Virus record (IMG/VR): IMGVR_UViG_3300029309_000064
Span: 1 to 51,660 of that record
Source of the DNA: a virus
Length of the DNA stretch: 51,660 nt
Reading direction: 5' to 3' (one strand)
Each line of letters begins with the position of its first letter. The stretch's first letter is position 1. Below, piece by piece: positions 22,328 through 29,320 of the stretch. Made by a program: the position numbers and the translations under genes. Under the pieces are notes generated by a model. The model ran no database searches. It was not told the origin of the DNA and saw nothing but the letters and a program-made list of their open reading frames with translations.

Positions 22328-22732
22328 ATGACAACTTTTACAAAACCAGTACTACGTGAATTAAGTAATCAACTGCAAACTTTGCTTGACAACAGTAAAT
22401 ACATAGGCACAGCGAAAGGCTTGAACGACTACGCCTTTGAGCTAGGCAACTGTAAATATGACGAAGGCGAAGCTACCTTTCAACTCAAGGTGCTTATCAA
22501 AGGTAGTAAGTCTAGACAAGAGAGAGATCTTGAAGACTTAGCAAAACTCAGTGACCTTGACACAACCAAGATTGCCACATTGCAAGGCATGAAAGTGTCA
22601 CTTGTAGGGTACAACACTAGAGCACGTAAACGCCCTTGGCTAATTCAAGACTTGACAACGGCTAAACAATATGTCTTAGATGATTACCAAGCCAGGCGTT
22701 TGTTTGGTGTAGTAGAAACAGAGGTATCTTGA
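22328..22732 (+). CDS. Conserved early protein of unknown function (134 residues)
   Basis: ATG 22,328 has an AAAGGAGAT site 10-11 nt upstream. The protein begins FTKPVLRELSNQLQTLLDNS, continues FELGNCKYDEGEATFQLKVL and has charged helices (RQERDLEDLAKLSDLD). The N-terminal helix then a GNCKYDEGEATF strand resembles recurrent marine phage proteins of unknown role. It ends 3 nt before the tRNA-like element, so its mRNA may carry that structure at its 3' end. Confidence 0.6.
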   Translation: MTTFTKPVLRELSNQLQTLLDNSKYIGTAKGLNDYAFELGNCKYDEGEATFQLKVLIKGSKSRQERDLEDLAKLSDLDTTKIATLQGMKVSLVGYNTRARKRPWLIQDLTTAKQYVLDDYQARRLFGVVETEVS

Positions 22733-22735
22733 TAT

Positions 22736-22830
22736 GGGGAGTACGCTGGTGCGTTAATCTTATCTGTGGCAATATAGATAAGAGCCTAATTGTCTAGGTG
22801 TGGGGGGTTCAATTCCCTCACTCCTCACCA
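22736..22830 (+). ncRNA. tRNA-like cloverleaf with encoded CCA (possible attP or degenerate tRNA)
   Basis: GGGGAGT (22,736-22,742) pairs with ACTCCTC (22,820-22,826), followed by discriminator A and CCA. A canonical T-arm is present: GGGGG, loop TTCAATT, CCCTC. The middle is non-canonical. Position 8 is A, the D-arm is a 4-bp stem with a 4-nt loop (ACGC/GCGT), and the anticodon-position stem is 7 bp (CTTATCT/AGATAAG) with a 10-nt loop. A CCTA/TAGG stem is in the variable-arm position. Length is 95 nt. It may be a tRNA-like structure, a decayed class II tRNA, or the tRNA-derived attachment site of the integrase encoded 1.5 kb downstream. Confidence 0.55.
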
Positions 22831-22872
22831 TGAAACAAAATATGAGTTTAACAGTTTAGAGGAGACTACACA

Positions 22873-24103: not shown

Positions 24104-24313
24104 ATGGCCTTGTACATTAAAAGAGTTCTTATCGCCCTCTCAGTATTGGTTAATGTAATACTTGGCGGTATGAACAACCAAACGTTTAGCGCTAGGAATT
24201 GGCAATGGAGAAGGGATCGTAAGCCTAACTTGGTTTGGTTGATTGATCTCACAGTAGGGAAAGGACACTGTTCAGAATGTTGGGTTTACTGGAAGACACG
24301 CAGGAAATGGTAA
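24104..24313 (+). CDS. Small membrane-anchored Cys/Trp protein (69 residues)
   Basis: A GAGGAGT site precedes ATG 24,104. There is an N-terminal span (IKRVLIALSVLVNVILGGM), then NQTFSARNWQWRRDRKPNLV and WLIDLTVGKGHCSECW, ending KTRRKW. This order (membrane anchor, NQTFS-type motif, GxHC..CW) recurs in a widespread family of small phage proteins of unknown role that I remember from prophages and marine phages. It overlaps the integrase start by 7 nt. Confidence 0.55.
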   Translation: MALYIKRVLIALSVLVNVILGGMNNQTFSARNWQWRRDRKPNLVWLIDLTVGKGHCSECWVYWKTRRKW

Positions 24314-25197
24314 AGGCTAAGACAGTACAGCAGTTAGTGTACGCATACTTAAAGTCAGATGCGTTTCGCAAGCTAGGCCAAGCTTCACAAAAAGACTACT
24401 ATGACTGCCTAAGTATAATAGAAGATGGATTAGGACATATCAGTCTCAAGTCAGGCTTGACTGTACCTACCATGCAGAAACACTACAACGCTTGGCTTGT
24501 ACGTGGAGTTCATCGTGCAAACAAGATAGCTGCGATCATGTCTATACTTATTAATTGGGCTACGAAGAATAACTTACGTGTCTTCAACCCTATGCCGTAC
24601 ATAGACAAGACACCTAACCCACCTCGCAAAGTTACATGGGAGCCAAGCCAGGTTAAGCTGTTCTTGGATACAGCGTACAGCCAGTGGAAGTGGCGATCCA
24701 TAGGCTTGATTGTACACATGGCTTACGAGTGGGGGCAACGTGTAGGTGATATGCGTATGCTGTTATGGAACGCTATAGACTTAGACAAAGGACGCTGTGA
24801 CTTTGAGCAAAGCAAACGAGGTGAGGCAGTGCACTTGCCTATCAGTGATGGCTTGATGCACGTACTGAGACAACAACACGAAACGTTTAGCTTTCAAGTC
24901 TTGGTAGCTCCACAGATACAGCCTAGTGATGGAGCGTACAAGCCATACACGAAGGAAGGTCTTCACGTACACGTCAATGCAATACTGGAGGAAGCTGGAC
25001 TGCCAAGCCACCTGACAGCTATGGATATGAGGCGTACAGCTATTACTGAAATGGTTGAAGCTGGTGTAGATATAACACAGATCAAACAAGTTAGTGGTCA
25101 CACCAGTATAAATAGCTTGACTCCGTATATCAAACACACGTATACTGGTGCATCAGAAGCATTAGCCCAGCGCAGTGCGTACAAGGATAAAGAGTGA
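24307..25197 (+). CDS. int: Tyrosine recombinase (phage integrase)
   Basis: A 296-residue protein from ATG 24,307 (an in-frame ATG at 24,277 would overlap the previous gene more). The N-terminal SAM-like DNA-binding part is followed by the catalytic domain: R145 (EWGQRVGDM), K170 (EQSKRGEAV), R242 (MDMRRTA), H265 (SGHTS) and nucleophile Y274 (LTPYIKH). The His of the usual HxxR box is Met239. It should catalyse site-specific integration; a candidate attP with a tRNA-type 3' end lies at 22,736-22,830. An octamer GCCCAGCGC lies near its end (25,165-25,173). Confidence 0.87.
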   Translation: MVKAKTVQQLVYAYLKSDAFRKLGQASQKDYYDCLSIIEDGLGHISLKSGLTVPTMQKHYNAWLVRGVHRANKIAAIMSILINWATKNNLRVFNPMPYIDKTPNPPRKVTWEPSQVKLFLDTAYSQWKWRSIGLIVHMAYEWGQRVGDMRMLLWNAIDLDKGRCDFEQSKRGEAVHLPISDGLMHVLRQQHETFSFQVLVAPQIQPSDGAYKPYTKEGLHVHVNAILEEAGLPSHLTAMDMRRTAITEMVEAGVDITQIKQVSGHTSINSLTPYIKHTYTGASEALAQRSAYKDKE

Positions 25198-27562: not shown

Positions 27563-28298
27563 AGCAACATATATAAATCATATGGGCAATGATATTACAG
27601 TAGTAAACGCTGCTCGTGTGTCTTTTGGTAAAAGATCAGGAATGATTTGTGTAGATAATGTACTAGGCAAATGGGAGCTTGAAGAAAAAGATAGTAAATT
27701 AATATATTATCTTGCCAAGCACAAACATATGTCACCGTTTGGTCACTGCTTTGTTACCTTTCATGTAAAGGCTCCTATCTTTGTAGCACGTCAACTAGTC
27801 AAGCATAAATTCTTGCGATGGAATGAGATTAGTAGAAGGTATGTTGACAGTGAGCCTGAGTTTTATGTCCCTGAGTTTCGTGAAGCAGTTGCAGATAAAA
27901 AACAGGGATCAGGAGATACTTTAAACTCTGAAAATTTAAGAATACGTTTTGAAAGAGATATGGTAAGTTTTAAACATAAGTACGGGTATCTATTACACCA
28001 AAAGGTTTGTCCAGAGCAAGCACGTATGGTACTACCACAGTCTACCATGACTGAGTGGTACTGGTCAGGTAGCCTTGATGCCTTTGCTGATATGTGTAAT
28101 TTGCGCTGTGCTTCTGATACACAACACGAAACACGCATAGTTGCTACGCAGATTAGTGCTAAGATGCTTAACCTGTTTCCTGTATCGTGGAATGCTTTGG
28201 TAAAAGTTAGTGAACATCAAGCAGAAAAGATGACTGACTTTACAGTATCTCCAAAAGATATATGGAAAGATGGTGATGGAGGGGAGTTGTTTGTATGA
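27552..28298 (+). CDS. thyX: FAD-dependent thymidylate synthase
   Basis: 248 residues from GTG 27,552, chosen because an AAGGAG lies 8 nt upstream and homologues begin MK(I/V)K; a TTG at 27,528 is less likely. It contains [29 protein letters not shown] and the signature R80 [17 protein letters not shown]. The canonical RHR triad is KHK (84-86), as in some phage ThyX. C-terminal [20 protein letters not shown] and [10 protein letters not shown] fit the family. It converts dUMP to dTMP using methylenetetrahydrofolate and FAD. ATGA overlap with guaC. Confidence 0.92.
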
Positions 28299-29320
28299 GA
28301 CTAGAGAATGAAATTAAACTAGACTTTAAAGACGTTCTAATAAGACCAAAGCGAAGCACCCTTGGTAGTCGCAAGCAAGTTGAATTAACTAGAGATTTTA
28401 AGTTTAAAAATTCTCTTGGGGGGTATCAAGGTATACCCATAATGGCTGCTAACATGGATGGCGTTGGTACTTTTGAAATGGCAAGAGCTTTAAAAGAACT
28501 TGGTCTGTTTACTTGTTTAGTTAAGACATACACACCTGAAGAGATCATTGACTTTTTTAAAAGTGATCAACGATTATATCAAAGCGTAGCTGTAAGCATC
28601 GGTATCACTGATGCTGATCTGGTAAAGTGGCACGAGGTTTATTCTCAAGAGCACAGTGTAAAATATGTTTGTATTGATGTTGCTAACGGTTACAGTGAAA
28701 ACTTTGTAGGTTTTGTAAAAGAGTTTAGAGATAGATACCCTGAGATAGTTATCATAGCAGGTAATGTAGTCACTGGTGAAATGACAGAAGAATTAATACT
28801 AAGTGGTGCTGACATAGTTAAAGTTGGTATTGGTCCTGGTTCAGTTTGTACAACAAGAATACAAACAGGTGTTGGCTACCCACAACTGTCAGCTATAATA
28901 GAGTGTGCTGATGCTGCTCATGGTCTTGGTGGTTTAGTTATTGCTGACGGTGGTTGTACCTGTGCTGGTGATGTTGCAAAGGCTTTTGGTGCAGGTGCAG
29001 ACTATGTAATGCTTGGTGGTATGTTTGCTGGTCACGATGAAGGTGGCTCTGAAATAATAGATGGCAAGGTTCAGTTCTACGGCATGAGTTCTAAAGCTGC
29101 TAATGACAAACACTTTGGTGGGCTAAAAGAATACAGAGCATCTGAAGGTAGGGATGTTCAGATACCACACAAAGGAAAAATATCGGGTACGGTTCAAGAA
29201 ATACTTGGTGGTCTTCGATCTTCTTGTACTTATGTAGGTGCAAAAAGTTTAAAGAATTTAAGTAAGTGTACAACTTTTATTAGATGTACCCAGACACACA
29301 ACTCTGTTTTTGTAAAGTAA
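28295..29320 (+). CDS. guaC: GMP reductase
   Basis: 341 residues, close to the bacterial enzyme (about 347). It begins [18 protein letters not shown]. It has [30 protein letters not shown] and the catalytic loop [11 protein letters not shown] with Cys185, followed by TGVGYPQL and the phosphate-binding [30 protein letters not shown] region. No CBS domains, as expected for GMP reductase rather than IMP dehydrogenase. NADPH-dependent conversion of GMP to IMP would redirect host guanine nucleotides to adenine in an AT-rich phage. It is coupled to thyX by ATGA. Confidence 0.88.

Follow-up and report, generated by a model that had tools for sequence, protein, structure and literature searches.

A conserved tRNA-like RNA family without an anticodon loop in marine DNA phages

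What kind of RNA is encoded by a tRNA-like cloverleaf that sits between two genes of a marine phage and has a long hairpin where its anticodon arm should be? The window, by which we mean the whole stretch of 51,660 nucleotides analysed here, is a 51.7-kb virus record (IMG/VR IMGVR_UViG_3300029309_000064) whose terminase and integrase place the phage among the HMO-2011-type marine podoviruses: the terminase is 83-84% identical to those of Roseobacter phages CRP-603 and CRP-2, and the integrase 44-47% identical to those of CRP-603, CRP-207 and Puniceispirillum phage HMO-2011. The survey that has been published for these phages relied on tRNAscan-SE, and in the RCA phage paper HMO-2011-type isolates are reported without tRNA. 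An earlier note on the window had proposed four identities for the cloverleaf, namely a tRNA-like structure ending an mRNA, a decoy, a decayed tRNA, or an attP core copied from the 3' end of a host tRNA. Our comparison of sequences indicates that the element belongs to a conserved family of tRNA-like RNAs, and that its role is probably something other than codon reading. Elsewhere in the window (28295-29320, + strand), next to a thymidylate synthase, lies an ORF with an IMP dehydrogenase/GMP reductase domain (PF00478, E 1e-72), an unusual nucleotide-metabolism gene for a phage.

The features of the element are collected in the table. The acceptor stem, T-arm, CCA, D-arm, A at position 8 and long hairpin that had been described before are all present in the sequence, and the element indeed starts 3 nt past a stop codon (TGA at 22730-22732). 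The acceptor pairing GGGGAGT/ACTCCTC joins 22736-22742 to 22820-22826 and reaches 8 bp when T22735-A22827 is included; the D-arm follows without the usual 2-nt linker, with A at 22743. The hairpin in the anticodon-arm position (h1) can alternatively be described as CTTATCT/AGATAAG around a 10-nt loop, and smaller loops on longer stems can be drawn as well. The hairpin in the variable-arm position (h2), and the complementarity of its loop to that of h1, were not among the features listed earlier.

Table. Positions of the tRNA-like element, its parts and its immediate neighbours in the window.
Feature	Position	Strand	Evidence or remark
tRNA-like RNA element, complete cloverleaf with its CCA	22735..22830	+	fold z -4.4, matches to covariance model R1, pair counts
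Acceptor stem, 5' strand, TGGGGAGT	22735..22742	+	partner is 22820-22827; 4 double-changed pairs, 80% of cells paired (5 members)
Acceptor stem, 3' strand, ACTCCTCA	22820..22827	+	final A may be discriminator 73
Mini D-arm, ACGC-UGGU-GCGU	22743..22754	+	UGGU loop in 5/5; stem with 2 double changes
Hairpin h1, anticodon-arm position, extended stem	22758..22783	+	TCY/RGA base and (T/A)CTG/YAG(A/T) top paired in 5/5
h1 loop segment GGCAAU	22768..22773	+	6/6 standard pairs with 22789-22794 in 5/5 members
Hairpin h2, variable-arm position, GCCTA-ATTGTC-TAGGT	22784..22799	+	5 bp; C-G to U-A double change in L005
h2 loop AUUGUC, partner of h1 loop	22789..22794	+	
T-arm, GGGGG-UUCAAUU-CCCUC	22803..22819	+	present in 5/5; 3 pairs with double changes
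Encoded CCA	22828..22830	+	sequence comparison of members
134-aa ORF, bounding the insertion site on its upstream side in HMO-2011-type relatives	22328..22732	+	comparison of relatives
Leader with ribosome-binding site ahead of 111-aa ORF	22831..22872	+	

Is such a structure more than chance would give? None of 200 dinucleotide shuffles folds as stably as the element (z = -4.4). A loose tRNA-like descriptor (a T-arm with TTCRA, at least 6 of 7 acceptor pairs, and a 4-bp D hairpin with GG) has one match in the real window and one in a pool of 300 shuffled windows. The perfect GTTCRA T-arm motif, over about 105 related loci, is confined to the elements of the family and two genuine tRNA-Arg genes. 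ARAGORN calls tRNA-Arg (TCT) genes at L108:3978-4054 (CRP-13) and L109:6146-6222 (CRP-9), stretches for which the records shown list no tRNA feature.

Standard gene finders do not see the element. ARAGORN calls no tRNA or tmRNA in the window, and Rfam gives no match there at gathering score, its tRNA models staying below that score; with relaxed thresholds the best match is tRNA-Sec (RF01852), at 23.4 bits against a cut-off of 47. We searched for promoter and terminator signals near the element and found nothing above chance. Short ORFs through the element, or stop-codon readthrough, were considered and dropped, since on inspection the frames are not conserved.

Homologues occur in five other IMG/VR contigs and, with the window, make up five distinct sequences. 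Two of them, in L005 and L010, were found through the 134-aa ORF just upstream, which has no match in Pfam or PHROGs and 15 relatives in IMG/VR; an element homologue directly follows the stop codon of this ORF in these two relatives only, the others having other genes there. A covariance model (R1) built from the window, L005 and L010 found no further member on 96 loci, 80 integrase relatives among them, or on 30 whole records. A pattern on the conserved right half of the element returned 31 stretches, which we then scored with R1: L139 and L154 score 79.6 bits, L155 scores 68.9, and no ordinary phage tRNA exceeds about 26. The pattern fixed TAATTGNC and GGTTCRATTCC, so that their conservation in L139 and L155 is in part a product of the search itself, and left the D-arm, the acceptor, h1 and the h1 loop free. 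Scans with the exact pattern returned only the two known relatives from the viral collections and nothing from the genome collections, and Blast searches against phage isolates and plasmids gave little besides common T-arms. Two groups of candidates were rejected, L134/L135 as a coding stretch and L099-L101 as ordinary tRNAs. On the opposite strand, L005 and L010 have Rfam matches to plastid regions, which apparently reflect a resemblance to the T-arm of plastid tRNA-Ser.

The family is rare, most relatives being without the element, and it spans at least three types of marine phage with unrelated neighbouring genes. These are the HMO-2011-type podoviruses (window, L005, L010); L155, from a 57.5-kb phage whose RNA polymerase is T7-like and whose portal and capsid resemble those of SU10; and L139/L154, contigs 98.8% identical to each other, with their own terminase and RNR and an identical element.

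Evidence that the pairing is kept comes from covariation, counted on the five-sequence alignment with a six-helix structure. Standard pairs fill 94.7% of the pair cells, and 12 pairs show double-sided changes, against a shuffle mean of 4.8; none of 500 shuffles reaches 12, and a control with slid partners gives at most 4. The D-stem reads ACGC/GCGT in the window and GCGT/ACGC in L139, both closing UGGU, and several pairs of the T-stem and of the acceptor covary, the middle pairs of the h1 stem being variable among members. The 5' two thirds of the element are more conserved and the 3' third least. Contacts between the D-loop and the T-loop build the elbow of a tRNA. Here a UGGU D-loop and a UUCRAUU T-loop are kept in all five members, which indicates selection for a tRNA elbow. 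Taken together, these observations bear out the view of the element as a tRNA-like structure: a conserved, covarying fold in five distinct viral sequences, with no decoding loop.

They also speak against a decayed tRNA gene, or a single old defect spread through recombination, a reading that we consider quite unlikely. It would account for the imperfect acceptor stems (those of L005, L010 and L155) and for the rare, patchy distribution. However, the homologues compensate their stem changes, at 12 pairs, and keep their D- and T-loops invariant, and the missing anticodon loop is a trait that all of them share. Moreover, the element is 81-83% identical where the adjacent ORF is 36-79% identical at four-fold sites, a comparison to be read knowing that the element can move independently of the ORF.

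Could the element nevertheless decode? A canonical 7-nt anticodon loop on a 5-bp stem is absent from the family, whose members have either an 8-nt loop or a tetraloop on a stem of at least nine positions; with no 7-nt loop free to read codons, the structure speaks against ordinary decoding. An unorthodox decoding tRNA, read by the ribosome despite the long stem, can be imagined from the 8-nt loop U/G-G-R-Y-A-A-U-A, with a U33-like base, a GRY triplet and A37-A38; variation falls mostly at the would-be anticodon positions 35-36 (GGC, GGU, GAC). But a stem of nine or more positions in place of five, a loop that is not 7 nt long, a triplet that covaries with the h2 loop and relatives without a consistent anticodon make this highly unlikely. 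ARAGORN rejects four of the five members and calls the fifth, L010, a tRNA-His with an implausible loop. L139 scores 23.0 bits with the Rfam tRNA model, whose gathering score is 29, and the tmRNA model matches only an 18-nt T-arm stretch of L010 at 15 bits against 47.

The h1 loop, (U/G)GRYAAUA, seems instead to be engaged elsewhere. Its segment GRYAAU is complementary to AUUGYC of the h2 loop at six of six positions in all five members, whereas the chance of such complementarity is about 0.9% for one unrelated sequence. Pair 37-61 covaries (G.U, G-C or A-U) and is the only pair of the loop helix with a double change; because of this single double change, a shuffle test of the loop helix alone is indecisive, 136 of 500 shuffles doing as well, with slid versions pairing at 53% or less. 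Formation of a loop-loop helix is therefore, in our view, likely and moderately supported. A GNRA tetraloop capping h1, suggested by three sequences and RNAfold, was rejected, since L139 and L155 read GACAAU at that place.

Since no linker separates h1 from h2, it is sterically doubtful that one molecule could hold both full stems and a 6-bp loop helix at the same time. Possible ways out are to open one stem in part and form an H-type pseudoknot, to dimerize, or to alternate between states. One could go further and regard the element as a dimer-forming RNA, in which the h1 loop of one molecule pairs with the h2 loop of another; the perfect complementarity in all five members and the zero-length linker, which makes an intramolecular kissing helix doubtful, would both fit. 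An H-type pseudoknot in which h1 or h2 opens in part is also conceivable, and we hold the dimer to be very unlikely.

The genomic setting is that of an accessory cassette at a variable junction, lying between genes in sense orientation. We base this, from sequence comparison, on two observations. The near-identical phages L004 and L005, whose 134-aa-ORF proteins are 98% identical, differ by a clean 250-bp indel directly after the same stop codon; the insertion in L005 consists of the element and a 44-aa ORF, and its flanks are 86% and 97% identical. In the window, the element occupies the place of a gene present in L002, of which the last 35 nt or so remain at about 22838-22872. More broadly, the 134-aa ORF in the window and in L002-L016 marks a junction at which the next gene is methyltransferase-like, a 111-aa ORF or the tRNA-like element.

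Near an integrase such a cassette might be an attP, copied from the 3' end of a host tRNA and used by the tyrosine integrase, which lies 1.45 kb downstream (24277-25197, + strand; about 1.5 kb had been estimated). The related phage CRP-3 does integrate at the 3' end of tRNA-Met (PMC6918029). The element and the integrase are not linked, however: the contigs of L019 and L020 (which are those of L007 and L006), with integrases 95-96% identical, cover the same stretch without the element. In addition, the 3' part, which ought to be conserved in an attP, is the least conserved, and matches to phage or plasmid tRNAs stop at the common T-arm. On these comparisons, which covered phage and plasmid sequences, the proposed attP origin is not supported, and we regard it as very improbable. 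Close relatives of the integrase are numerous in virus contigs (at least 561 confirmed); among prokaryote genomes, one per species for about 85,000 species, a search found none, and so no host genome is tied to the phage.

The main rival to a role in trans is a purely cis role, in which the element belongs to the operon mRNA: cuts by RNase P, RNase Z or both would part the flanking genes and break their translational coupling, and the released RNA would be functionless. Several facts favour such a role. In the three HMO-2011-type contigs 2-4 nt separate the start of the element from the stop codon that closes the 134-aa ORF; an AGAGGT site at the end of this ORF could serve the next gene in phages without the element, and phages with it have a separate AGGAGAC site downstream. 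On the other hand the flanking genes vary, the upstream contexts of L139 and L155 differ, with the element of L155 lying in a non-coding gap of about 700 nt, and both loops are more constrained than a processing signal requires. The suggestion that the structure ends an mRNA is thus possible, as far as position goes, in those three contigs, and does not extend to L139 and L155. With such unrelated neighbours an independent RNA gene fits better than a cis element bound to one gene, and we consider the cis role rather unlikely.

Two further features of L155 (contig 3300017776_000014) may be recorded here. About 110 nt upstream of its element, at G022:C1:20229-20312 (- strand), lies another unusual tRNA-like fold that ARAGORN misses; it has a T-arm, and a short hairpin, CTGC-AATA-GCAG, replaces its anticodon loop. 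We count the setting of the L155 element, a non-coding gap next to such a fold, in favour of the mimic reading set out below. The element itself is flanked by AGTAT on the 5' side and ATACT on the 3' side, which could lengthen the acceptor helix of the precursor beyond a 7-nt bulge, CTCACCA.

How might an RNA that keeps the top of a tRNA and gives up decoding be of use to a phage? From the sequences we favour a non-decoding tRNA mimic, matured like a tRNA and acting in trans on a host factor that binds the elbow or the acceptor, and we give this reading a probability of roughly one half. The element would be cotranscribed with its operon, host RNase P would cut it free at the 5' end, and the tRNA 3' machinery would mature its 3' end. 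The mature RNA could then occupy some host factor that recognises the elbow or acceptor of tRNAs; candidates are EF-Tu, a synthetase, an enzyme of tRNA processing or modification, and a defence nuclease that attacks tRNAs. The loop-loop helix would stop the anticodon-like loop from pairing with mRNA. CCA is encoded in the window, L005 and L155, but L010 has CCCA and L139 none, so that charging is not assured. A decoy role, as had been suggested, is possible. More tentatively still, and with more doubt than confidence, we can picture a family of mimics in which the variable-arm loop locks the anticodon-like loop, moving as a cassette from one lineage of marine phages to another and diverting a tRNA-binding or tRNA-attacking host factor.

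These considerations bear on the reasons for which phages have tRNA genes: if elbow and acceptor are kept and decoding is given up, the selected role must lie elsewhere. The family also shows a class of RNA genes overlooked by tRNA finders and by Rfam.

How does the family compare with known systems? None of the nearest described structures unites a place in a DNA phage, the absence of an anticodon loop and complementarity between the h1 and h2 loops. Among the closest are tRNA-Sec, which at relaxed score is the top Rfam tRNA model for three members out of five (23.4, 21.2 and 18.8 bits), and the allo-tRNAs, which likewise have a short 4-nt D-loop, a long variable arm and a possible 8-9 bp acceptor (as in L139); some allo-tRNAs are irregular and not chargeable by E. 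coli enzymes (Mukai et al. 2017, reviewed in PMC7609411). The element differs from both in having no anticodon loop, a shorter D-stem, loop-loop complementarity and scores of 19-23 bits against 47; the three matches all stay below the RF01852 gathering score, and a UCA-type anticodon is absent along with the loop. The tRNA-like domain of tmRNA is also the top half of a tRNA without an anticodon, but the element has a D-stem and lacks a tag ORF, a conserved G3-U70 pair (as inspection of the members confirms), an ARAGORN call and an Rfam match at gathering score. Phage tRNAs that evade tRNA-targeting defences (PMC10264068, PMC11555353) resemble it in being accessory genes of tRNA type, located in phage operons and able to counter host defences; they are true tRNAs, however, whose anticodon loops are normal or altered. 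The mascRNA of MALAT1 (cited in PMC4810234) likewise has a tRNA-like fold that does not decode, which serves in the processing of RNA ends by RNase P; it is a eukaryotic RNA with no sequence relation to the element. Finally, tRNA-like structures are well known in RNA viruses (PMC4810234), and those of plant RNA viruses such as TYMV (PMC4810234, PMC5723415) offer a viral parallel, with their imitation of elbow and acceptor and their extra loop pairing; the element shares with them a conserved tRNA-like fold in a viral genome, here supported by covariation over five members, and is unlike them in lying between genes of a DNA phage, in its plain acceptor stem rather than a pseudoknot, and in having no sequence relation. 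A conserved non-decoding tRNA-like structure across several types of DNA phage would be a new viral RNA family.
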